The position numbers were made by a program, and so were the translations under genes. From NCBI GenBank assembly GCA_945882415.1, contig CAMCWC010000002.1:124001-188000 (forward strand): DNA of 64,000 bases, written 5' to 3'. Source of the stretch: Chthonomonas calidirosea. Lineage in GTDB: Bacteria > Armatimonadota > Fimbriimonadia > Fimbriimonadales > Fimbriimonadaceae. Positions 5,166 through 62,878 of the stretch are shown piece after piece. The number at the start of each line of letters is the position of its first letter. Positions within the stretch are counted from its first letter, which is position 1. The notes beneath the pieces were generated by a model. The model was not told the DNA's origin and did not search any database. It was given only the letters and a program-made list of their open reading frames with translations.

Positions 5166-5406
5166 GTAAGATAAGAACGCGCAGGAAAACCGTGGCGAGA
5201 TAGCTCTTCAGCCGAAACTCGTCCAGCCGCAACATCGAGACGGTGCCGAAACAGATGCCAAACGGCGTGCCGTACATCAGCACCGCCAACCAAATCGGCG
5301 CCCCAATCACGTTCCGCAGGACCAAAGAAGTGATCAGCGACAAGCCGTAAGACAGCGCAAAGACCCGGACCAAATCCTTCGCCCCCCGCTGGCTCCCCTG
5401 ATTCAC
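4993..5406 (-). pseudogene. N-terminal membrane region of the cyclase, in another frame
   Basis: The first ~80 residues (MNQGSQRGAKDLVRVF... to ...LATVFLRVLILL) contain at least two or three hydrophobic helices and read like a normal membrane protein. After about 5165 the translation becomes Cys/His/Gly-rich (HPADALGGGCG) and no longer protein-like, while the overlapping frame continues with TAVFVAFFIALLCNISL and the cyclase domain. Joining the frames restores a continuous transmembrane helix and a cyclase of about 345 aa with four to five helices. The change needed is one base; no canonical slippery heptamer is seen, so sequencing error or a recent mutation is likelier than programmed shifting. 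Confidence 0.6.
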
Positions 5407-5438
5407 CCTTCCACTTTAACCCAGATCAGCCGTCCGAG

Positions 5439-5477
5439 CCCCTCCCTTTCGCCGTTGAAAACGGCGAGAGGGAGGGG
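5439..5477. repeat. 18-bp perfect-stem intergenic hairpin (REP-like)
   Basis: Bases 5439-5456 and 5460-5477 pair over 18 bp (one G-T wobble) around a 3-nt loop, with pyrimidine-rich CCCCTCCC on one side and GGGAGGGG on the other. It lies upstream of the split cyclase and has no T-tract, so it is not a classical terminator. The shape resembles dispersed palindromic intergenic repeats of other bacteria; there is no second copy in this window. Confidence 0.6.
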
Positions 5478-5540
5478 TTGGGGAGGGAGAGCCGCCCCGC
5501 CAAATCTCCTAGAACTAGCGAAAAATAAACTTCCCCCATA

Positions 5541-11968: not shown

Positions 11969-12039
11969 CGAGGGGAACCCCACTTGGCGGACTTTACCCG
12001 CCGAGGCAGAATCGAACTTGGATAGCACACCAAAAACAA

Positions 12040-12074
12040 AGCAGGGTCCTTGCCAATATGGCGAGGACCCTGCT
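12040..12074 (-). terminator. Rho-independent terminator of the FG-GAP protein gene
   Basis: On the minus strand AGCAGGGTCCT...AGGACCCTGCT (11 bp, extended by GCC/GGC near the loop) is followed by TTGTTTTT. It starts 15 nt after the stop codon at 12090. Confidence 0.85.
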
Positions 12075-12089
12075 TGATTCAGTTACCGA

Positions 12090-14975
12090 TTACGAAGCGG
12101 TAACGGTAAGGAGCGCACCGCGCGTGCCGTCGCCCGGAATGTTTCCGTAGATCCAGCTCGTTGCGGTCGTGGTTCGGGTGAACGTTGTCACGGTTGCCGT
12201 GGTCGAAGTCGATCCGGCAGGGATCGTTACCGAGACCGGAACGGTCGCCACTCCGGTCTTTTGGCTGGTGAGGTTAATCACCACGCCGCCGGCCGGTGCT
12301 GGTGCAGCAAGGGTTACCGTGAGAGTCGAACTCGTTCCGCCCTGAACCGAGGTCGGGCTAAGCGCAACGCTCACCAGAACTGGTCGGTTTACCGAAACGG
12401 TGGTGGTCTTACTCGTGGTGACTCGGGCGGTAATCGTTGCCGTCAGGTTAGACGTACCTACCGAAGTCACGGGGAAGATCATTGTTGAAACTCCCTGAGG
12501 AACGGTGACCGTTGAAGGCACCGTCACCTGTGAAGTGCTAGATGTTAGCTGGACGACCTGTCCGCCAACTCCCGCTGGTCCAACTAAAGTGACCGTTCCG
12601 GTTGTATTGCCGCCAGCTCGAATCGGGCTCGCCGCGACGGAAACGCTCAGTACGTCAACCGCAGGGACAACCGTTACCGTGCCAGTCTTGAAGCTATCGA
12701 TAAGCACGGCAATGATGCTAACGGCGGTGGAAGACCCCACCGATCCAGCCGTGGCGTTGAAGGTAACGCGCGCTTGACCGGCCGGGACTACCACCGAGCT
12801 TGGCACGGTGATCGCGGCATTATTGCTCGAAAGCGAAACAGTGGCACCGCCAGCGGGAGCAACGGTGTTCAACGTAACCGTTCCAACCACCGTACCGCCG
12901 GCATTCACCGTCGGGCTGGCAAACGTGACCGAATTCATTCGGGCAGTTTTCACCGTGATCTGTGCGGTGTCGGTATCGAATCCGGCCGCCGTGGCGGTGA
13001 CGGTGGCAAGGGTGTCAGCCGCAACGTTGAGCGAAGTGACATCAACGCTTGCCGAGGTCGCACCTTGTGGCACAACGATCGAAGCAGGAGCGGGGAAAGC
13101 TGCGCTATTGCTGGCCAGCGTCACCGTAGTTCCGCCAACAGGCGCGGCAGTGGTGAGGGTCACGTTCAGGCTAGCCTTTGCGCCACCCTTGACCGTTGCC
13201 GGCAAAGTGAGGTTAATCGCGTCGCCAAACTTGAAGGCATACGCTGCACCCTTAAAGCTCGTGTCGCCCGTTGCGCCGACTAGAGCATAGTCACCCGCGA
13301 GTGACACGAAGCCACCGAATCGCTTACTGGCCGCGATATCGGACGGAGTGATCTTTTGGGCTTGCGAGTACACGCCAGCCGTGGAGTTGAAGACATAGGC
13401 CGCACCTCGGAAGCTCAAATCGGCAATCGCGCCGATCAAAGCCTTCGTGCCATCAAGCGAAACGCTAAAGCCGAAGCAGATTAGCGCCGGGGCGTCGTTT
13501 GGTAGAAGCTTTTGGCTCTGTGACCAAACGCCAGCCGAACGAGTGAAGATGTATGCCGAACCGTAGTTCGAATCGTCTGCATAGGCACCCACGATCGCGG
13601 TGTCACCTTCGATATCGACAGCCCAACCAAAGTTATCCTGGGTAGCTCCATCGCTTGCGGTCAGCTTCTGCTGTTCGGTCCACACGCCAGCGGCGCGGGT
13701 GTAAACATAGGCCGCACCTTGGTTGTCTGCGTCGCCGAAAGCGCCGATGATTGTGGAGTCTCCGCTAACTGCGACGCGAACGCCGAAGTTGTCGCCGGCT
13801 GCGCCGTCAGAAGCAACGAGTTTCTGCTGCTCGGTGAAGGAAGCGCCACCGTCGACGAACACGTAAGCTGAACCCTGGATCGCATTCTCGACCGAAGCAC
13901 CAACAACGGCGGTCGTTCCATCGAGGTCAACCGCATTTCCAAATTCATCTCCAGAAATACCGTCGCTGGCAAGAAGCTTTTGCGACTGCGTGAAGGTTCC
14001 TGCGGCTTCGCGGAAGACATAAGCCGCGCCCTGTGAACTGTCGTCTAGAGGTGCGCCAACGACGATCGTTGGACCGTCGATTGCAACGGCGATTCCGAAA
14101 TTGTCATCGGCAACGCCGTCGGCTGCGACAAGCTTCTGGGTCTGCGTCCACGCGCTGCCGGTTCGGCGATACACATAAGCCGCGCCACGGGCCGAGTCGT
14201 TTTGGTACGAACCAACCACGGCAACATCTCCGTCCAAATCGACGCTGACGCCGAACGCATCGCCGCTATCCCCGTCACTTGCCGTGAGTTTTTGCTGCTG
14301 GAACCAAGTTGGGTCAATCGTGACCGGATAGACAGCCGCGCTATCGTCAACCGCGACTTCGATGCTCTGGCCAGAGACTTCAAGGCGAGCCGGGAGCTGG
14401 ATTCCGCGAGCGTCCCAAACCTTCAGGCCGGCATAAGTCAACGTCGAATTCGCTCCTCGAACTTCGACCGCATCGGTGGAAAGTGACTTCAGTTGAGTTG
14501 CTCCGGAAACGGAAAGCCGCACCCAAAGCGAGCCGCTAGCAATCGACGCACCGGGTCGGGTGGAGACTTTCATCCAGTGGTGAAGGCCGTCTGCACCGTT
14601 TACGAACCATTCAGAAAGACCGGTTCGTGCAAACGAGGCTACCGGCCAACCGGCCGTATCTTTGCCAAGCGTGGAAGACGTGTTGCCCAGCGCGCCTCGC
14701 GTCGAACCGCGACCAAAAGCGGCAACTCGAACGCCGATCTTGTCCGAGCCAGCCTTGAGGGTTAGCGCCCCCTGAGAAGAGAGTTCGCTTGAGTAACCCA
14801 AGCCCGGTTGACGAGAAACAACTGATCCAGACTCCTGCAACTCAAACGCGCGAACTGACCGTGCAATCGCATCGTTCAATCCTCCGCTTTGACCCGGACC
14901 AAAATCAGCCTGCGCCGACGCCGCTGATACGAGCAACAGCGGTAAAGCGCGCAAGAAAACATTGACGCGTGACAT
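12090..14975 (-). CDS. large secreted FG-GAP/Ig-like repeat protein
   Basis: A 961-aa exported protein; the ATG at 14975 begins a signal peptide (MSRVNVFLRALPLLLVSAASAQA). After an N-terminal region of about 200 residues come seven FG-GAP-type repeats of about 52 residues (KL.ASDG...DNFG.AV.IDGD..IVGA...RGAAYVF), expected to close one seven-bladed propeller. Four Ig/Calx-like repeats of about 93 residues follow (S+V...V.GG....GTVTL..PAPAGG...L.S.......P..V.VPAG). No sortase motif, PEP-CTERM or T9SS tail is obvious; the C-terminus ends in a beta strand. Likely surface-exposed or released, binding ligand or matrix. Short residue periodicity keeps GC high. Confidence 0.85.
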   Translation of the reverse strand: MSRVNVFLRALPLLLVSAASAQADFGPGQSGGLNDAIARSVRAFELQESGSVVSRQPGLGYSSELSSQGALTLKAGSDKIGVRVAAFGRGSTRGALGNTSSTLGKDTAGWPVASFARTGLSEWFVNGADGLHHWMKVSTRPGASIASGSLWVRLSVSGATQLKSLSTDAVEVRGANSTLTYAGLKVWDARGIQLPARLEVSGQSIEVAVDDSAAVYPVTIDPTWFQQQKLTASDGDSGDAFGVSVDLDGDVAVVGSYQNDSARGAAYVYRRTGSAWTQTQKLVAADGVADDNFGIAVAIDGPTIVVGAPLDDSSQGAAYVFREAAGTFTQSQKLLASDGISGDEFGNAVDLDGTTAVVGASVENAIQGSAYVFVDGGASFTEQQKLVASDGAAGDNFGVRVAVSGDSTIIGAFGDADNQGAAYVYTRAAGVWTEQQKLTASDGATQDNFGWAVDIEGDTAIVGAYADDSNYGSAYIFTRSAGVWSQSQKLLPNDAPALICFGFSVSLDGTKALIGAIADLSFRGAAYVFNSTAGVYSQAQKITPSDIAASKRFGGFVSLAGDYALVGATGDTSFKGAAYAFKFGDAINLTLPATVKGGAKASLNVTLTTAAPVGGTTVTLASNSAAFPAPASIVVPQGATSASVDVTSLNVAADTLATVTATAAGFDTDTAQITVKTARMNSVTFASPTVNAGGTVVGTVTLNTVAPAGGATVSLSSNNAAITVPSSVVVPAGQARVTFNATAGSVGSSTAVSIIAVLIDSFKTGTVTVVPAVDVLSVSVAASPIRAGGNTTGTVTLVGPAGVGGQVVQLTSSTSQVTVPSTVTVPQGVSTMIFPVTSVGTSNLTATITARVTTSKTTTVSVNRPVLVSVALSPTSVQGGTSSTLTVTLAAPAPAGGVVINLTSQKTGVATVPVSVTIPAGSTSTTATVTTFTRTTTATSWIYGNIPGDGTRGALLTVTAS

Positions 14976-45075: not shown

Positions 45076-46117
45076 CGCCAACCTCGCGCTATACATGGAG
45101 CAGAGCCTCACCATTCCCGCCGGGAAGATGGGGCACGGCGTTCTTCGGTACTCGCCAAACGAGATCAGCGCCGTGATTGACTCCGAATTCGCCGGAAGAT
45201 CAACCGGCGAGTTCGGTTTCCCGCGAGATGTTCCGATTGTCGCATCCGTTGAGGATGCCGCCGCCCTCGGTGCAAATGTCTTCGTTCTTGGGATTGCACC
45301 TTCTGGAGGCGCAATTCCTGCCGAATGGTTTACGGTCATCGATCGGGCAGTTGAACTCAAAATGTCGCTGGTGAACGGACTTCACGACCGTCTAGGCGCA
45401 CGCTATACCGACCTCCCACGCCTTGAAGATGCCAAGGGCCGTGCCCAGTGGGTTTGGGATATCCGAGTTGAGCCAAGTGGATTAGTGAACGGCACTGGGC
45501 TCGCCGCAAAGTTTGAGAATCGCCGTGTTTTGATCATCGGAACCGATATGGCGGTGGGCAAAATGACCGCCGGTCTAGAGATCAATCGCCTTGCGCTTGA
45601 GCGAGGCATCAAATCCGCGTTCGTCGCTACTGGCCAGATCGGAATCACGATCACCGGTGGCGGAGTTCCGCTCGATTGCGTCCGCGTGGACTTTGCGAGT
45701 GGCTCCATTGAGCGAGAAGTAGTCGCCGCTAGTTCAGCTGGCGCGGACTTGGTGATCATCGAGGGCCAAGGCTCCCTGGCACATCCGAGCAGCACGGCCA
45801 ACCTTCCACTTTTGCGGGGCTCTTGCCCAACGCATCTGCTGCTTTGCGTTCGAGCCAAGCAAGAGCACTTGAAGATGCTTGAGCACATCAAGGTTCCGGA
45901 CCTGCGTGAGTTCATCACGTTGTATGAGGACCTTGCGGAGGCTGCTGGAACCTACCTACGCCCGAAAACGATGGCGGTCGCCGTGAACACGGCTCATCTT
46001 CCAGAAGCGGAAGCCATTCCGGCGATTGAGGAGATTGAGGATCGGCTGCAGTTGCCTGCCGCCGATCCAGTTCGTCAGGGTCCAGCGCGATTGCTGGATG
46101 CCCTCGTCAGCCCATAG
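45062..46117 (+). CDS. DUF1611 protein, DgcN-like
   Basis: A 351-aa protein. The start MLPTNANLALYMEQSLTIPAGKMGHGVLRYSPNEISAVIDSEFAG is typical of DUF1611; the C-terminal half has the P-loop-like RRVLIIGTDMAVGKMTAGLEI, and VIIEGQGSLAHPSSTANLPLLRG. The DgcN member of this family is a D-glutamate N-acetyltransferase acting with DgcA. GGAG ends 9 nt before ATG 45062; an alternative ATG lies at 45047. The 14-nt overlap with the upstream epimerase gene indicates translational coupling. Confidence 0.83.
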   Translation: MLPTNANLALYMEQSLTIPAGKMGHGVLRYSPNEISAVIDSEFAGRSTGEFGFPRDVPIVASVEDAAALGANVFVLGIAPSGGAIPAEWFTVIDRAVELKMSLVNGLHDRLGARYTDLPRLEDAKGRAQWVWDIRVEPSGLVNGTGLAAKFENRRVLIIGTDMAVGKMTAGLEINRLALERGIKSAFVATGQIGITITGGGVPLDCVRVDFASGSIEREVVAASSAGADLVIIEGQGSLAHPSSTANLPLLRGSCPTHLLLCVRAKQEHLKMLEHIKVPDLREFITLYEDLAEAAGTYLRPKTMAVAVNTAHLPEAEAIPAIEEIEDRLQLPAADPVRQGPARLLDALVSP

Positions 46118-47339
46118 GAGCAACGTTCCACAGGGCTGCCATCGGCAAGCCGATGATGTGCTTGTTAATGCGAACCGTCCGAGTGCCATCGTACAAAATG
46201 ACCCCGCGATGGAATCGGTCGGGATCGAGCGACTGGAGGTACTCCAGCCCGTGCGAGTCACTCGGACTTAGGCTTCGAGACGACTTGACTTCGATTCCAA
46301 CAATCTTTCGATCACCGACTTCCAGAACAAAGTCGACCTCTTTCTGACGCACCGTTCGCAGGTGGTGCAGCCATGGACGAACATCAGAGTACGTCTGTAG
46401 CCGAGCAAGCTCATTCGCCACAAAGCCCTCCAAAATCGGCCCAAGCCGCAGTCGATCCTGCTTCAGATGACTCGCCTCGATGTGCAGGAGGTGACTCGTC
46501 AGCAACGAATCACACAGGTACACCTTCGGTGACTTGACGAACCTCGTGCCGATGTTGCCGGACCACGCAGGTACCTGCTGGACCAAGAACATCTTCGCCA
46601 TGAGATCGATGTAGCGTCGAACCGTGGTGGACGGAATCCCGGTGTCTCGCGAAAGACTGTCGATGTTCAACGTGCCGCCGTTTCTTGCGGCCAGCAGGCG
46701 AAAAATCTGAGGAAACTGACGCGCCCCTTCGATATTTGCCAAGTCGCGAACGTCACGATCAAGCAGCGTTCTAATGTACGAATCTGCCCAGTCCCTACGC
46801 CGATCTGCCCTTCGAGCGAGGGCAGGCTGCGGAAATCCGCCCCGGACAACGCGGTCGATGAGATCGTCCTCCTCCGGCCAGGTCCCGGCCTGAATCGGAT
46901 CATCCGAAAAGATGCGGTCGATGAAGTTTCCATCATAACCGTCAATTTCAGCCTGAGTAAGTGGAAGAAGATCGAGCACCTCCATCCTGCCTGCAAGACT
47001 TTCCGAGACCTTCGGTAGCGTCAGTACGTTCGCCGAGCCGGTGAGGAGGTAGCGACCCGCTGTCCGGTTTCGATCAACCCGAAGTTTGATCGGAAGCAAC
47101 ATCTTCGGCGCGCGCTGCACTTCGTCGATGGTCACCGCCCCCGGAAAGCTATCCAAGAAATCGCCGGCGTTCGTGGTGATCTGCTCAAGAATGACCGGAT
47201 CGTCAAGCGTGACGTACTCGCGGTCGGTCAGCTCCTCGACCAGCGTGCTCTTGCCCGCCTGTCGGGGACCAACGATCATCGCTACCGGATTGTCCGAGAG
47301 CGCATCACGCAGCTTCTTGATAAGTCTTCGCCTGACCAC
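46107..47339 (-). CDS. ATPase with DUF4143 domain (AAA_14 type)
   Basis: A 410-aa protein. N-terminal P-loop IVGPRQAGKSTLVEEL, Walker B AVTIDEVQRAPKML, sensor YLLTGSANVL; then a winged-helix-like region (LSRDTGIPSTTVRRYIDLMAKMFLVQQVPAW) and the C-terminal DUF4143 nuclease-like domain (LHHLRTVRQKEVDFVLEVGDRKIVGIEVKSS, with E...D...ExK). The family is widespread, its function poorly known; it is often horizontally transferred. GTG start 47339, preceded at 6 nt by TAAATT. Its promoter region is covered by a 22-bp-period repeat array. The 3' end overlaps the DUF1611 gene by 11 nt. Confidence 0.9.
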   Translation of the reverse strand: MVRRRLIKKLRDALSDNPVAMIVGPRQAGKSTLVEELTDREYVTLDDPVILEQITTNAGDFLDSFPGAVTIDEVQRAPKMLLPIKLRVDRNRTAGRYLLTGSANVLTLPKVSESLAGRMEVLDLLPLTQAEIDGYDGNFIDRIFSDDPIQAGTWPEEDDLIDRVVRGGFPQPALARRADRRRDWADSYIRTLLDRDVRDLANIEGARQFPQIFRLLAARNGGTLNIDSLSRDTGIPSTTVRRYIDLMAKMFLVQQVPAWSGNIGTRFVKSPKVYLCDSLLTSHLLHIEASHLKQDRLRLGPILEGFVANELARLQTYSDVRPWLHHLRTVRQKEVDFVLEVGDRKIVGIEVKSSRSLSPSDSHGLEYLQSLDPDRFHRGVILYDGTRTVRINKHIIGLPMAALWNVAPMG

Positions 47340-47345
47340 AAGAAT

Positions 47346-47351
47346 AATTTA
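47346..47351 (-). promoter_or_regulatory. -10-like box TAAATT before the DUF4143 ATPase gene
   Basis: On the minus strand TAAATT is followed by 6 nt and the GTG at 47339. The first repeat unit of the adjacent array (from 47369) occupies the expected -35 position, so array binding would block or activate this promoter. Confidence 0.45.
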
Positions 47352-47368
47352 CCTGACAGCCTGCACAA

Positions 47369-47522
47369 TTCCACCATCAAGTGGCGGATTTTACACCACT
47401 AGATGGAGGATTTTACGCCAATTGCAGACGATGGACATCACAACTCGTGGCGCAGAATTCGCCGATCCACGAAGGATAATCCTCCCCTTGGTGGCGGATT
47501 ATCCACCATCAAGTGGAGGATT
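47369..47522. repeat. 22-bp-period operator-like repeat array (seven units)
   Basis: Seven consecutive 22-bp rows start at 47369, 47391, 47413, 47435, 47457, 47479 and 47501. Rows 1, 2, 6 and 7 fit the pattern TTCCACC(N5)GTGG(C/A)GGATT; rows 3-5 are degenerate but keep phase. In row 7 ATCCACCA and TGGAGGAT are near-perfect inverted arms around a 5-nt loop. 22 bp is two helical turns, so bound proteins would line up on one face of the DNA. The array lies directly upstream of the ATPase -10 box. No unique spacers, so it is not a CRISPR. Confidence 0.75.
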
Positions 47523-47537
47523 GTGACAAATTTTATC

Positions 47538-47574: not shown

Positions 47575-48276
47575 TCAGCGACGAGCGGCTACGAGAATTT
47601 TCCGCCAGCGCTCAGACAAAAAGTCGGTCGAAACGCCTTTCTTGCCGCTCGAGCTATGAACAAAGTAGCCATTGCCCAGATAGATACCGGTATGACCAAT
47701 CTTCCAGCGTCGGTTCTCCCAGAAGTACAACCTATCGCCCTTCTGCAAATCCTCTAAACGCTCGATTGGTTGCCCCACCATGGCTTGCTCAGAGGCCGTT
47801 CGAGGGAGCTTTAAACCGATCTCGCCGTAAAGTTTCTGAACGAAGGCGCTGCAGTCGATTCCATTCTGGATATCGTTTCCACCCCACTTGTACGGCGTGC
47901 CGATGAAATTCAACGACCATTGCGCCACCGCGCCACGAGAGGTGGTGCTTGCCAAAGGCAACCCTTTGGATCGCGTATTCGACGCGCGAGACACCGTGAC
48001 TTCATACGGGAGTACGGCAACTTTTGCGGATGGAACGTAGCCTTGGGTGCCGTTTGACATCAAGACTTTTAACCATTTCGGGTTGCTGTACCAATTGACG
48101 CAGATGTACTCAAACGCCTTGGCGGTGTAATAGGCGCGACTCTGGCTGTTGGGTGCGCGATAGATTTTGGTCGTTTCGACGGTTTGGCCATACCGGCCGA
48201 GGACCGACTTGGTGTCAGCCGCAAGTACGCCTTGAGCAATCGCTAAGGCGGTTACGGTTAACACCAACGTTTTCAT
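47575..48276 (-). CDS. secreted NlpC/P60 cell-wall peptidase
   Basis: A 233-aa exported protein (signal MKTLVLTVTALAIAQGVLAADTKS). SH3-like region about residues 30-100 (KAFEYICVNWYSNPKWLKVLMSNGTQGYVPSAKV), then the NlpC/P60 domain with Cys in NGIDCSAFVQKLYGEIGLKLPRTASEQ and His in IGHTGIYLGNGYFVHSS. It probably cleaves peptidoglycan stem peptides. Its ATG overlaps the purQ stop by 4 nt (ATGA). Confidence 0.92.
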   Translation of the reverse strand: MKTLVLTVTALAIAQGVLAADTKSVLGRYGQTVETTKIYRAPNSQSRAYYTAKAFEYICVNWYSNPKWLKVLMSNGTQGYVPSAKVAVLPYEVTVSRASNTRSKGLPLASTTSRGAVAQWSLNFIGTPYKWGGNDIQNGIDCSAFVQKLYGEIGLKLPRTASEQAMVGQPIERLEDLQKGDRLYFWENRRWKIGHTGIYLGNGYFVHSSSGKKGVSTDFLSERWRKILVAARR

Positions 48277-57285: not shown

Positions 57286-58665
57286 ATGCGTCGTCTCGCC
57301 ATCGCCCTAATGTTCGTTCTCGGTGCAGCCGTTCCGGCCGATTACCCAATCTTCGAGACGGACTTCATTCCCCCCGCCGAGCATAAAGAGCGGAGAGATA
57401 AGGTGCGGACGGCGATTGCCCCGGGCGGGGTTGCGGTCTTCTTTAGCAACCCGGAGCGAAACCGCAACAACGACGTTGACTTTCAGTTTCGTCAGGACTC
57501 AAACCTCCTCTACTTGACGGGTTTCAACGAACCGGACAGCGCCCTGGTCTTGATACCAAATGGCATCGAGGTGAACGGCAAAACGGTCAAAGAAGTTTTG
57601 TTCTGCAATGTTGCGACTCCGATGTCGGAAACATGGCTCGGCTACCGCATGCAGCCCAAGGGAGCTGAATCGATCCTGAAGATCGAGGCAGCGCTTCCGA
57701 ACACCGACTTTGCGAATTTCCTGAACCGATTGCCGACCGGAAGCGCAGTAAAGGCGACTCTCCCAGATGGTCCAACCGGGCAACTGTCTCGGATGGTAGA
57801 CGCTTACCGGACTTGGGAGGCAAAGACTTCAGCGCCAAAACCAAGCCTGAACGATACGATCGCGAAGTACCGGGTCATCAAATCTCCCGATGAGCTGCGA
57901 CTGATGCGCCGGGCCATCTCCGCTTCGGTTGACGGACACATTGAAATGATGCGGAGCGCGGAAAAGGGCATGAACGAGTACGACCTTGGCGCGATCTTCC
58001 ACTACGTGATCGGGCGTCGAGGGTGCGAGTACGTGGGCTATCCGAACATCGTCGGTAGCGGCCCGAACGCTTGCACTTTGCACTACACGGCGAATCGCCG
58101 AAAAGTGACCGGAGATGACCTCATCTGTGTGGATGCCGGGGGCGAGTACCACGGCTACACCGCCGACGTCACCCGAACCTGGCCCATCGATGGCACATTC
58201 AACCCGGAACAAAAGGCGATTTACGAACTCGTGCGAGAGGCCCAAGAAGCTGGAATCCGCGAATGCGTCAGCGGCAAGCCATTCAGTGGTACCGATCGAG
58301 CCGCGCGATCGGTGATTGCGAAAGGGTTGGTCAAACTTGGAATCATCAAGAAGGAGAATGAGGCCGGGATGTACTTCATGCACGGCACCTCGCACTTCCT
58401 GGGACTTGACGTCCACGATTCACAAGGCGCCAACGTGCTGGCACCGAACATGGTGCTCACGGTGGAGCCGGGCATTTACATCAAGGCAGGCAGCCCGTGC
58501 GACCAAAAGTGGTGGAACATTGGCGTGCGCATTGAGGACGACATTCTGGTGACGAGCGGCGCACCCGTGAATCTAAGCGCCAAAGCCCCACGTACGATCG
58601 CGGAGATTGAGAAGCTGATGGCACAGACCGGGATCGGAAACGTCCTCTTCGGCACGGACAAGTAA
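57286..58665 (+). CDS. exported Xaa-Pro aminopeptidase (M24B)
   Basis: A 459-aa protein with a probable signal peptide (MRRLAIALMFVLGAAVPA). The N-terminal creatinase-like domain (FFSNPERNRNNDVDFQFRQDSNLLYLTGFNEPDSALVL) and the pita-bread domain follow. The five metal ligands are visible: D in VDAGGEYHGYTADVTRTW (two Asp), H in GTSHFLGLDVHD, E in VEPGIYIK, E in VRIEDD. It removes N-terminal residues before proline from peptides outside the cytoplasm. GTG at 57277 is an alternative start, but TATAGT overlaps it. Confidence 0.93.
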   Translation: MRRLAIALMFVLGAAVPADYPIFETDFIPPAEHKERRDKVRTAIAPGGVAVFFSNPERNRNNDVDFQFRQDSNLLYLTGFNEPDSALVLIPNGIEVNGKTVKEVLFCNVATPMSETWLGYRMQPKGAESILKIEAALPNTDFANFLNRLPTGSAVKATLPDGPTGQLSRMVDAYRTWEAKTSAPKPSLNDTIAKYRVIKSPDELRLMRRAISASVDGHIEMMRSAEKGMNEYDLGAIFHYVIGRRGCEYVGYPNIVGSGPNACTLHYTANRRKVTGDDLICVDAGGEYHGYTADVTRTWPIDGTFNPEQKAIYELVREAQEAGIRECVSGKPFSGTDRAARSVIAKGLVKLGIIKKENEAGMYFMHGTSHFLGLDVHDSQGANVLAPNMVLTVEPGIYIKAGSPCDQKWWNIGVRIEDDILVTSGAPVNLSAKAPRTIAEIEKLMAQTGIGNVLFGTDK

Positions 58666-58669
58666 AGCC

Positions 58670-58700
58670 ACGGTCCCTGGCAAATTTTGCCAGGGACCGT
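58670..58700. terminator. bidirectional hairpin between convergent genes
   Basis: ACGGTCCCTGGC pairs with GCCAGGGACCGT (12 bp, loop AAATTTT), midway between the M24 peptidase stop (58665) and the DUF1800 stop (58705). It lacks a T-tract on either side, so termination may be Rho-assisted or the hairpin may stabilise 3' ends. Confidence 0.6.
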
Positions 58701-58704
58701 CAAC

Positions 58705-60111
58705 TCAGGCGAACTGGAATTCGGGAGTAGCGAACAGAAGTCGAGAAACCGATGAGCCGACCTTCTGCGCCATCACGCGGTTCATCGGACCGGTCATTTC
58801 TTTTTCGGCATTTGCAACCAAGATCTTTCGACGATCTGGATTCAGCTTCGCGTCGAAGAGGGAGGCAAGGCGATCCACGACTTCAGACGGCGTTGTTGCA
58901 CCGTTGAAGAGGGCTTCATACGGATATCCATTCCCAATTCGTCGACCTTTGCCGGTACCGAAGAGCGCCGCAGACCAGCCCATCCTCTCCACCATCGTCG
59001 CCGACGAAATCCAACCTTCGCCGCCCTCCCAACCCGCGACGTCCGGCGGATAGAGCAGTTGCATTCCCATGTTTTTCATCGTTGTTCCTGCTCCATAAGC
59101 TGGGAGGAGCGCAACGCGTTTGTCCAAGCCTCGGCTCGTGGATTCACGCATGATAGGCCCGAACCCGAGTTGCCGCAAGGTGGGAACGACAAAGTCAACG
59201 GGTGTCTTCACAACCGCACGCTCCGCCTTGTCCGAGTAGAACTCGCTCGAACGCATGATCGCCTTCAGCGTGGTCTTAATGTCGAGGTTCGAATCACGGA
59301 AAACCTTTGCGATTCGGGCGACGAACTTGGGCTCGGGCTCCGGATAGACAAACCAAGCGAGGAGCTTTTCTGTGATGTACTCCGCGGTTCGAGGCATTTC
59401 GCAAAGATGATTTAATACGTCTTCACCGGTGAGCGGGCCGGACTTGCCGAGGACGACCTTCATGCCGGCGTCGTGTAAGCGCGGACGGAAGAGGAATTCC
59501 CCCTTGGGCGGTTGTCCGTCATCCACGTTTCGGCGAGATCTCATCACGGACCATCCCGTAAATGCCCTTGCTGCCTCCTGTACGTCTTTTTCCGAGTAGT
59601 TTCCGACCCCGAGGGTGAAAAGCTCCATGACTTCTCGCGCGAAGTTCTCGTTGGGCTTTCCACGGACGTTCTCCTGGTTGTCGAGCCAGAACAGCATCGC
59701 CGGATCTTTGCTCATGTTGGTGAGCAAAGAGCGGTAGTTCCCCGTGGCGTACTGCCGAAGGGTCTCGTTCTGCTGGAGCATGAACTCGGAGGCTTTGACC
59801 TTGCTCGCGCTCGTGGCGAAATGGTCGTGCCAAAACAGGGTCATTTTCTCTTGCAACGGACGGCGAGTCGCGATCATGCGAGCAATCCACCAAGCCGTGA
59901 GAATCGGCATCGGGAGGTTTTTTGCCTTTTCTGGCTGCAAGTCGTACGGGTTGATGTTGAACCCTTCGTCGACCGATTCGTACTCCGTCAGGCGGTCAAC
60001 GGCTCCATTGAGACCATCCTTCAAGTAGTAGTCCAGTTCGGCCTCGCTTGCGCCAAGGCCAAACCTCCGTAGCAAGTGGGCTCCCTTTTCTCGATCGGTC
60101 TGAAGCGGCAT
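58705..60111 (-). CDS. DUF1800 family protein
   Basis: A 468-aa protein. REKGAHLLRRFGLGASEAELDYYLKDGLNGAVDRL, LPMPILTAWWIARMIATRRPLQEKMTLFWHDHFATSASKV, NENFAREVMELFTLGVGNYSEKDVQEAARAFTGW are DUF1800 hallmarks. Usually cotranscribed with a DUF1501 protein; none is here. No signal peptide is obvious. Function unknown; members are common in Planctomycetes and related bacteria. Confidence 0.9.
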   Translation of the reverse strand: MPLQTDREKGAHLLRRFGLGASEAELDYYLKDGLNGAVDRLTEYESVDEGFNINPYDLQPEKAKNLPMPILTAWWIARMIATRRPLQEKMTLFWHDHFATSASKVKASEFMLQQNETLRQYATGNYRSLLTNMSKDPAMLFWLDNQENVRGKPNENFAREVMELFTLGVGNYSEKDVQEAARAFTGWSVMRSRRNVDDGQPPKGEFLFRPRLHDAGMKVVLGKSGPLTGEDVLNHLCEMPRTAEYITEKLLAWFVYPEPEPKFVARIAKVFRDSNLDIKTTLKAIMRSSEFYSDKAERAVVKTPVDFVVPTLRQLGFGPIMRESTSRGLDKRVALLPAYGAGTTMKNMGMQLLYPPDVAGWEGGEGWISSATMVERMGWSAALFGTGKGRRIGNGYPYEALFNGATTPSEVVDRLASLFDAKLNPDRRKILVANAEKEMTGPMNRVMAQKVGSSVSRLLFATPEFQFA

Positions 60112-60757: not shown

Positions 60758-61243
60758 ATGAGACAAAGAAGAAGTAAAGAAGCTAAGGTTGCCCCAGTGG
60801 CACCCGTCATGAACGAAGCACGGCTTTACGAGGAACATGCCCTCACAGAACTCAAGAACGCGGGCTACCGAATCACCATGCCACGAGTTCAGGTCATCCG
60901 AGCGCTTTCGGACTCGGAGATCGCTCTGAGCGCGTACGCAATTCACGAGAAGATCGTGACTACCGGTGGCAAGATTGACGTCGTCAGCGTTTATCGAATT
61001 CTGAGCACCCTCCAAGAAGTCGGTCTAATTCACCACATCGGCATTGTTGACGGTTACTTCCCGGCTCGGACAACCAAGCCGGATGCAACCGCAACCGAAG
61101 TTGTCGTTGATGTCGACACAGACAAGGTTCGAGAGCTCACCCTCCCGTCCGAAATCATCGCTGCCATCGACAAGCAGGCCAAGGCACAGGGATTTGAAGC
61201 CCACTTGCTGAAGGTCGAAATCCGCGGCAAGTTTTCAAACTAA
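60758..61243 (+). CDS. Fur-family-like regulator lacking cysteines
   Basis: A 161-aa protein from ATG 60758 (alternative ATG 60809). The Fur winged helix is clear: LKNAGYRITMPRVQVIRALSDSEIALSAYAIHEKIVTTGGKIDVVSVYRILSTLQEVGLIHHI. The C-terminal half follows the Fur strand/helix order (EVVVDVDTDKVREL..., GFEAHLLKVEIRGKFSN) but has no Cys at all and lacks the usual HxHxxCxxC and metal-ligand clusters. It is thus likely a Fur-derived regulator with a changed or lost metal response. N-terminal ~17 residues are basic. Confidence 0.8.
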   Translation: MRQRRSKEAKVAPVAPVMNEARLYEEHALTELKNAGYRITMPRVQVIRALSDSEIALSAYAIHEKIVTTGGKIDVVSVYRILSTLQEVGLIHHIGIVDGYFPARTTKPDATATEVVVDVDTDKVRELTLPSEIIAAIDKQAKAQGFEAHLLKVEIRGKFSN

Positions 61244-61255
61244 AGCCCACGATAT

Positions 61256-61290
61256 AAAAAGCCCCGCTCACCTGGTGAGCGGGGCTTTTT
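61256..61290. terminator. bidirectional Rho-independent terminator
   Basis: GCCCCGCTCACC pairs with GGTGAGCGGGGC around a short loop, with A5 before and T6 after. It serves both the Fur-like gene (plus) and htrA (minus), which converge here. Confidence 0.92.
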
Positions 61291-61309
61291 TCTGTCTCTT
61301 CGTCTAGGG

Positions 61310-62878
61310 TTAGAACGTGACCGTTGCTTCTACCTTTGTCGTTGCTCCGTCCGAGAATCGGCTGTAAGCAACCGAAGTGCTTTCGCCCGACTTCATCTTG
61401 CTCACGACCTCTACGATTTCGTTCGACGAACTGATAGCTCGGCTGCCGATCTTCGTGATCACGTCACCAGGCTTCATGCCGAGGGTCGCCGCAGGGCTTC
61501 CAGGGCTTACGCTGAGCACTACAGCGCCCTTCGTTCCCTCTGGCACACCGAACTGCTTTCGCATCTCGGCGGTCACATCCGCAACGCTGACGCCAAGCCG
61601 TGGCCGCGAGGAGTCTGGCGTGATCGGCTGGACTGGCTTTTCCTCTGGGATCATTTTGCGGAGCTCCTCTGGAATCTCCATCCCGAACGGCGACTCAAGC
61701 TCGTCCGACTGCGGGCTGGTCATCTTAGGCGGTTCTGGTGCGGCTCCTAGCTTCACCTTAGCGCTCGCCGATTTTCCGTCACGAACGTACTTGACGTCCA
61801 CTTCGGTGCCCGGAGCGTAAACAAGCATCGAGTTGCGCAAATCAACCGAGGAGTCGATCTTTCGGTCTCCGATCTGGACGATAATATCGCCCGGTCGCAG
61901 ACCAGCTTTTCCGGCTGGCGTGTCGGATGCGGTGAAGCCAGGCATGTCTCGGCCCGGATCAACCACTTTCGCGCCACCAGACAATTTCATGTCTTTCTTC
62001 TCAAACTCTTTGAGAGATTCCATTCGGACGCCGAGATAAGCCCGGGTGACTTTGCCCTTCTCGAGCAGAATGTCTCCGATGAACTTGGCCTGATTGCTCG
62101 GAATCGCAAATCCGATGCCTGCCGATACTCCGCTTGGGCTGAAGATCGCGGTGTTCACCCCGACCACCTGACCATCAATGTTGATGAGCGGTCCGCCCGA
62201 GTTTCCTCGGTTGATCGACGCATCCGTCTGAATCAAGTCGGCATAAACCTTGTCTTGAATGAACTGCTCGCTTCGGTGCAGCGCACTGACGTGCCCAACC
62301 GTGACGGTGTTTTCGAGACCGAACGGCGCGCCAAGCGCCATCGCGAACTGCCCCGGCCGGACTTTGCTCGAGTCAGCGAAGCTAAGCGTCGGCAAGTCCT
62401 TCGCGTCAATCTTGACCAGCGCAATGTCAGCGAAGGGAGCGCGGGTAACCGTGCCCTTGAACTCTCGTCCGTCCTTCAGTGAGACGGTGACCTTGGTTGC
62501 ATCGCCCACGACGTGGTCGTTGGTCATGATGTAGCCATCAGCGCGGAAGATGAAGCCGGAACCTTCGCCTTGCGAAATCGGAACGCGTCGTCCGTCTTTC
62601 CCTTGGGCTCTCTCTTGGACCGCTTTAATGTCCACAATTGCCGCACCGGCGTATTCCGCCAGGTTGGCAAACGAAGTGTCGAGGTTGCGAAGCTCCGCCA
62701 TGCTTTCGGCAGAAGTTTCGGCGACAAGTCGAGGCGCGGCTACGGCCGGCTTTTCTTGCGCAATGACTTGAGGGAGCGCCTTGCCGCTAAAGACCGCCGC
62801 CATGCAGACGGCTCCCAAAGCAAACCCGGCTCCAATGGTGAGATACACCGACTTCGGTGTTCGAATGGATGGTTTCAT
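61310..62878 (-). CDS. HtrA/DegP-like serine protease with two PDZ domains
   Basis: A 522-aa membrane-anchored protease. An N-terminal hydrophobic segment (VYLTIGAGFALGAVCMAAVFSG) is followed by a trypsin-like domain with His in MTNDHVV, Asp in DIALVKI, Ser in NRGNSGGPL. Two PDZ domains follow (AYLGVRMESLKEF...AGLRPGDIIVQIGDRKI and PRLGVSVADV...ATLGMKPGDVITKIGSRAI). It degrades misfolded envelope proteins. 14 nt downstream of the RseB-like gene on the same strand. Confidence 0.93.
   Translation of the reverse strand: MKPSIRTPKSVYLTIGAGFALGAVCMAAVFSGKALPQVIAQEKPAVAAPRLVAETSAESMAELRNLDTSFANLAEYAGAAIVDIKAVQERAQGKDGRRVPISQGEGSGFIFRADGYIMTNDHVVGDATKVTVSLKDGREFKGTVTRAPFADIALVKIDAKDLPTLSFADSSKVRPGQFAMALGAPFGLENTVTVGHVSALHRSEQFIQDKVYADLIQTDASINRGNSGGPLINIDGQVVGVNTAIFSPSGVSAGIGFAIPSNQAKFIGDILLEKGKVTRAYLGVRMESLKEFEKKDMKLSGGAKVVDPGRDMPGFTASDTPAGKAGLRPGDIIVQIGDRKIDSSVDLRNSMLVYAPGTEVDVKYVRDGKSASAKVKLGAAPEPPKMTSPQSDELESPFGMEIPEELRKMIPEEKPVQPITPDSSRPRLGVSVADVTAEMRKQFGVPEGTKGAVVLSVSPGSPAATLGMKPGDVITKIGSRAISSSNEIVEVVSKMKSGESTSVAYSRFSDGATTKVEATVTF

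Follow-up and report, generated by a model that had tools for sequence, protein, structure and literature searches.

In the 64,000-nucleotide stretch of Chthonomonas calidirosea DNA analyzed here (contig CAMCWC010000002.1, positions 124,001 to 188,000; referred to as the window), a repeat array was located at 47360-47530, between an NlpC/P60 gene and the minus-strand gene of an ATPase with AAA_14, winged helix-turn-helix (HTH), and DUF4143 parts. This array is quite likely the cognate operator of the adjacent ATPase, which would bind to and control (probably repress) its own promoter. Phased boxes at the gene's own promoter are a rule across bacterial phyla for DUF4143 ATPase genes, and since the letters of these boxes tracked the DNA-reading helix of the ATPase, the protein probably recognizes and controls its own gene.

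The array advanced in steps of 22 base pairs (bp), each made up of a 17-bp dyad (TGG-N11-CCA) and a 5-bp spacer, and contained eight consecutive registers on the minus strand (letters are given for the plus strand): the innermost half-site (47360-47376), two full units (TGGCGGATTTTACACCA, 47382-47398, and TGGAGGATTTTACGCCA, 47404-47420), a lost unit (from 47426), a near-full unit with 5/6 of the TGG/CCA letters (TGGCGCAGAATTCGCCG, 47448-47464), a unit in which the core dyad was retained (CGAAGGATAATCCTCCC, 47470-47486), the best unit, which was full with 7/8 pairs (TGGCGGATTATCCACCA, 47492-47508; inverted repeat at 47478-47522), and the outermost half-site (47514-47530). A preliminary description of this DNA had placed one motif at 47381, 47403, 47491, and 47513, with weaker copies at 47447 and 47469. 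GTGGCGGATT was found at 47381 and 47491, GTGGAGGATT at 47513, and the weaker copies were also present, whereas ATGGAGGATT at 47403 was one letter off that motif. The 22-bp step and the dyad arms were both borne out, with three full dyads in the array; the array itself was real, but slightly longer than its units within 47340-47522 had implied.

A chance origin of the array is excluded: the best-phase TGG/CCA score was 38, whereas 5000 dinucleotide shuffles, scored with the phase left free, averaged 19 and never exceeded 29, and the best direct-repeat score was matched by 0/1000 shuffles. The array was also the top lag-22 site of the window. In the 3.36-Mb genome (the array lies on a 368-kb contig), motif matches with at most one mismatch clustered at this promoter only; a CRISPR or mobile-element repeat was rejected on this ground, as was a genome-wide repeat family, no copies of which were found elsewhere in the genome.

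The start codon of the ATPase gene was a GTG at 47339, and a -10-like hexamer, TAAATT (47346-47351, minus strand), stood at -12, which was also the most frequent position of a TATAAT-like hexamer in the family. The innermost unit spanned -37 to -21, between -35 and -10 (family register -38), confirming the promoter placement previously proposed. Among homologues, units of the TGG-N11-CCA type (class I; see below) mostly started at -16 (20 cases), -38 (15), and -60 (5), i.e., in 22-bp steps and in a fixed register relative to the start codon. A hexamer with 4/6 letters was detected in 58/64 genes and in 58% of shuffles, and its position was thus more telling than its presence. With starts at -16, -38, and -60 and the hexamer at -12, class-I units overlap the -10 box or the stretch between -35 and -10, and in many homologues the -10 box and the start codon. 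This arrangement would imply leaderless or short-leader transcripts. An autoregulatory operator is located at the promoter of its binder's own gene, and this was the case here, given the ATPase as the binder.

The position of the units also bears on whether the dyads act as RNA, in the form of an attenuator, a terminator, or leader hairpins. The strand folded better than shuffles (z of approximately -5.8); however, units that overlap the -10 box or precede it would be transcribed with the gene little or not at all, the spacing was locked to 22/23 bp, the class-II arrays described below showed similar phasing as non-palindromic direct repeats, and a terminator search at the array was negative. 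We consider this explanation most improbable. An RNA element was rejected as a candidate, with no Rfam match and no terminator found at the array.

The preliminary description had proposed a search for similar arrays at other DUF4143 genes, and these were found at orthologues and at diverged homologues across phyla. In a genome of the same genus (G014), the gene order was identical, and the same array preceded an ATPase with 97% identity; when its intergenic region was aligned with that of the window, most of the outer and innermost dyads were kept and the middle was lost. In a genome from another family of the same order (G049), the dyad was located directly before a DUF4143 gene with 40% identity to the window ATPase. 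A motif-first search with the window dyad pattern was performed over 113 genomes of the order, and 18 of the match sites were inspected: 9/9 sites with a strong extended palindrome adjoined DUF4143, while 9/9 weak sites did not. One of the strong sites (genome G041, L069 1343-1540) adjoined what was left of a DUF4143 gene, its last 41 codons (the C-terminal end), the rest being gone. Since these 41 codons directly adjoin the palindrome, this apparent orphan is most likely the leftover operator of a lost DUF4143 gene.

The promoter region (positions -110 to +30 relative to the start codon) was surveyed in 142 non-redundant DUF4143 genes representing many phyla. Strong palindromes were present in 37%; the corresponding frequency was 6% for control genes from the same loci (p=1.7e-14) and 1.4% for shuffles. 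When lags of 8-69 bp were scanned, direct repeats were prominent at 22, 23, 44, 46, 66, and 69 bp, and hardly elsewhere. Direct repeats of 22 or 23 bp were present in 119/294 non-redundant DUF4143 promoters, but in 0/294 of the first 113 coding bases, 5/236 of the first 113 bases downstream, and 3/285 of the regions from -360 to -247. Against the pooled flanking controls (8/521), Fisher's test gave p=1.7e-50, a value that relatedness makes too small, while the contrast is plain. Three fresh samples gave lag 22 in 6/47 and lag 23 in none, lag 22 in 12/50 and lag 23 in 14/50, and, with the prediction fixed in writing beforehand, lag 22 in 19/55 and lag 23 in 12/55, respectively.

The type of box went with the type of HTH: genes of the xTTLxRY type had TGG-N11-CCA dyads at 22 bp (class I), those of the APFxLSRxTIRxY type had non-palindromic direct repeats, mostly at 23 bp (class II), and those of the NTAKxWLS type had single palindromes, e.g., TTGCATTCTGAATGCAC. 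The array had also been described as iteron-like, and this held for its form, since class-II homologues carried non-palindromic 23-bp direct repeats; on the other hand, there was no sign of a replication origin, origin features not having been sought.

The ATPase (410 amino acids; 46107-47339, minus strand) matched Pfam AAA_14 and DUF4143, in the domain order of the PADLOC system PDC-S01, the model of which it matched over the full length (E=3.5e-144). NCBIfam contained no model for the protein, and a sequence search found no relatives with solved structures. PDC-S01 has been described as a single-gene phage-defence candidate, in which an ATPase is fused to a PD-(D/E)XK fold, with approximately 39,000 copies; it is listed as pending validation, as are most PDCs (PMC12988326). 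The Walker motifs and the E-x-D...E-x-K nuclease motif were intact in the window protein, and G29, K30, D72, E73, E334, D336, E350, and K352 were invariant among 45 homologues. A single stop codon (TGA, TAG, or TAA) interrupted the frame of several otherwise full-length DUF4143 copies, which suggests that these are decaying. The AlphaFold model of the window protein (predicted local distance difference test score of 93.2; predicted template-modeling score of 0.93) consisted of AAA+, winged-helix, and PD-(D/E)XK-like domains. In the winged helix, two helices (residues 226-233 and 237-249, the latter being the recognition helix, with residue 237 as its first) were followed by a strand at 253-256, the would-be wing. 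The codons of residues 226-249, including the candidate specificity residues 237 and 241, are located at 46593-46664 (minus strand).

The half-site letters varied from gene to gene, even between paralogs of one genome. After the removal of overall protein divergence, class-I half-site divergence was associated with HTH divergence (Mantel p=0.0014 in a smaller set and 0.002 in a larger one), and in a segment scan of the whole protein, residues 229-241 (the turn and recognition helix of the winged helix) best predicted it. Residue 237 and half-site base 6 formed the top residue-base pair in the larger set and the second in the smaller set; in the former, Q went with G in 13/15 genes, Y with A in 10/10, and H with A in 9/10. 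A single-residue code by residue 241 alone failed once more genes were added. Among phylogenetically separate pairs, 7/8 switched as a grouped residue-237 rule predicts and none in the opposite direction (7/7 informative). Covariation between site letters and the recognition helix is a further mark of an autoregulatory operator, and the grouped rule fit base 6 in 40/43 genes, with the grouping chosen on the same data, and in 10/11 fresh genes, nearly all of one class. In addition, ten DUF4143 genes of a single genome (G280) had mostly clearly different upstream palindromes, which is what recognition of its own promoter by each copy would predict. This genome had approximately two dozen DUF4143 ATPase matches, an unusual number of paralogs.

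These comparisons strongly supported the ATPase itself as the putative binder of its boxes, in line with the preliminary suggestion of a cooperative operator for an unknown binder, perhaps the ATPase's own winged helix. Known defence genes are often under separate repressors, e.g., those of the BrxR/CapW WYL type (PMC9122601). The array may instead be the operator of a different, unlinked regulator, such as a general defence-island repressor; however, such a regulator would not readily account for box letters that differ by gene and by paralog in step with the neighboring ATPase's winged helix, or for the pairing of each HTH subtype with its own box type, and we regard it as quite unlikely.

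Several points weigh against an operator read and repressed by the ATPase itself. At the cut-off used, approximately 60% of the promoters were without a 22/23-bp repeat, and many of these had one long palindrome in its place. The surveyed genes are not phylogenetically independent, and their start codons were taken from the alignment. The covariation was modest (partial r of approximately 0.2), and a segment of the nuclease domain (323-333) also ranked high in the scan. The residue-237 grouping (Q/S/A/P/E/R/L to G; Y/H/N to A) was derived from the genes that it was scored on, and among fresh genes, 10/11 fit the rule, nearly all of one class (p=0.18 alone). Furthermore, activation would fit the positions of the units nearly as well as repression.

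In the mechanism that we propose, the winged helix, located between the AAA+ domain and the PD-(D/E)XK-like domain, would read TGG-type half-sites, and pairs of protomers would sit on the dyads every 22 bp. Since this step corresponds to approximately two helical turns, successive units share one face of the DNA, on which the AAA+ parts may assemble side by side, and binding may be cooperative. Because the units lie on the -35/-10 region, self-repression appeared to be the most likely sign of regulation, and it may be released by the nucleotide state or by competing (foreign) DNA. In Thermus thermophilus, one AAA_14-DUF4143 gene was up 6.6-fold in the presence of a plasmid (PMC4406477), a rise that fits derepression. 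Given this response and the candidacy of PDC-S01, a role in defence is plausible for the family. Alternatively, the boxes may serve for activation, or they may be where the protein assembles for some other principal task (filament nucleation, an origin-like function, or self-recognition), with autoregulation as a secondary effect. AAA+ folds near Orc1/Cdc6, RuvB, and MuB act on DNA as assemblies, and the window array reached as far as -191, well beyond the promoter on its upstream side. Nevertheless, the arrays were found at the gene's own promoter rather than downstream or farther upstream, and many consisted of one or two units on the -10 box; we therefore judge this alternative to be unlikely.

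Regarding known systems, PDC-S01 was the same as the window ATPase in its full-length match and the ATPase/PD-(D/E)XK fusion, while the open-access papers searched yielded neither an operator or DNA site nor any regulation for the DUF4143/COG1373 family. BrxR/CapW (WYL-type) and RptR are likewise repressors on defence promoters, but are separate proteins (PMC9122601, PMC12255303), whereas in the present case, binding appears to be a function of the candidate effector. Foldseek matches of the ATPase model were RuvB, MuB, Orc1/Cdc6, and, as the best, the archaeal Walker-type ATPase PABY2304 from Pyrococcus abyssi (PDB 2qen), all with low template-modeling scores. Iteron-binding plasmid Rep proteins and archaeal Orc1/Cdc6 are winged-helix proteins with repeated boxes of approximately 20 bp beside their own genes; in DUF4143 genes, the boxes are on the promoter and a nuclease domain is fused. 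2qen belongs to PF01637 (ATPase_2). Genes of PF01637, the intended negative control, also often had promoter palindromes (36% of 28), but 22/23-bp phasing in 1/28; thus, phasing, and not palindromes as such, is specific to DUF4143 here. Long promoter palindromes or repeats were observed in the PF01637 genes of loci L375-L395, e.g., those of the TTAGTATAA...TTATACTAA types in L377-L380 and L391.

Outside the array, the upstream neighbor of the ATPase gene, encoding the NlpC/P60 protein (47575-48276), is on the same strand, an order also found in G014. Further strong palindromes at 5401-5520, 12001-12120, 58621-58740, and 61201-61320 of the window read as terminator-like hairpins, and tandem repeats of 126/252 bp at 1212-1686 were apparently coding, with a WD40-type look.

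Beyond the window, the self-addressing rule may extend to a wider ATPase class including PF01637. For the family itself, we tentatively propose, as a possibility that falls somewhat short of probable, that PDC-S01, which ranks with the commonest candidate defence genes in prokaryotes, is a self-addressing ATPase-nuclease: each copy would have a private 22/23-bp-phased operator, read through a residue-to-base code of the winged helix, and the in-register assembly of AAA+ parts would silence its own gene until invading DNA or a change in nucleotide state released the protein. A predictable DNA site for many copies would allow a direct assay of the family, in which a labelled operator reports binding and a reporter gene shows whether a phage or plasmid induces expression. 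It may also provide orthogonal repressor-operator pairs that function alongside each other in a single genome.
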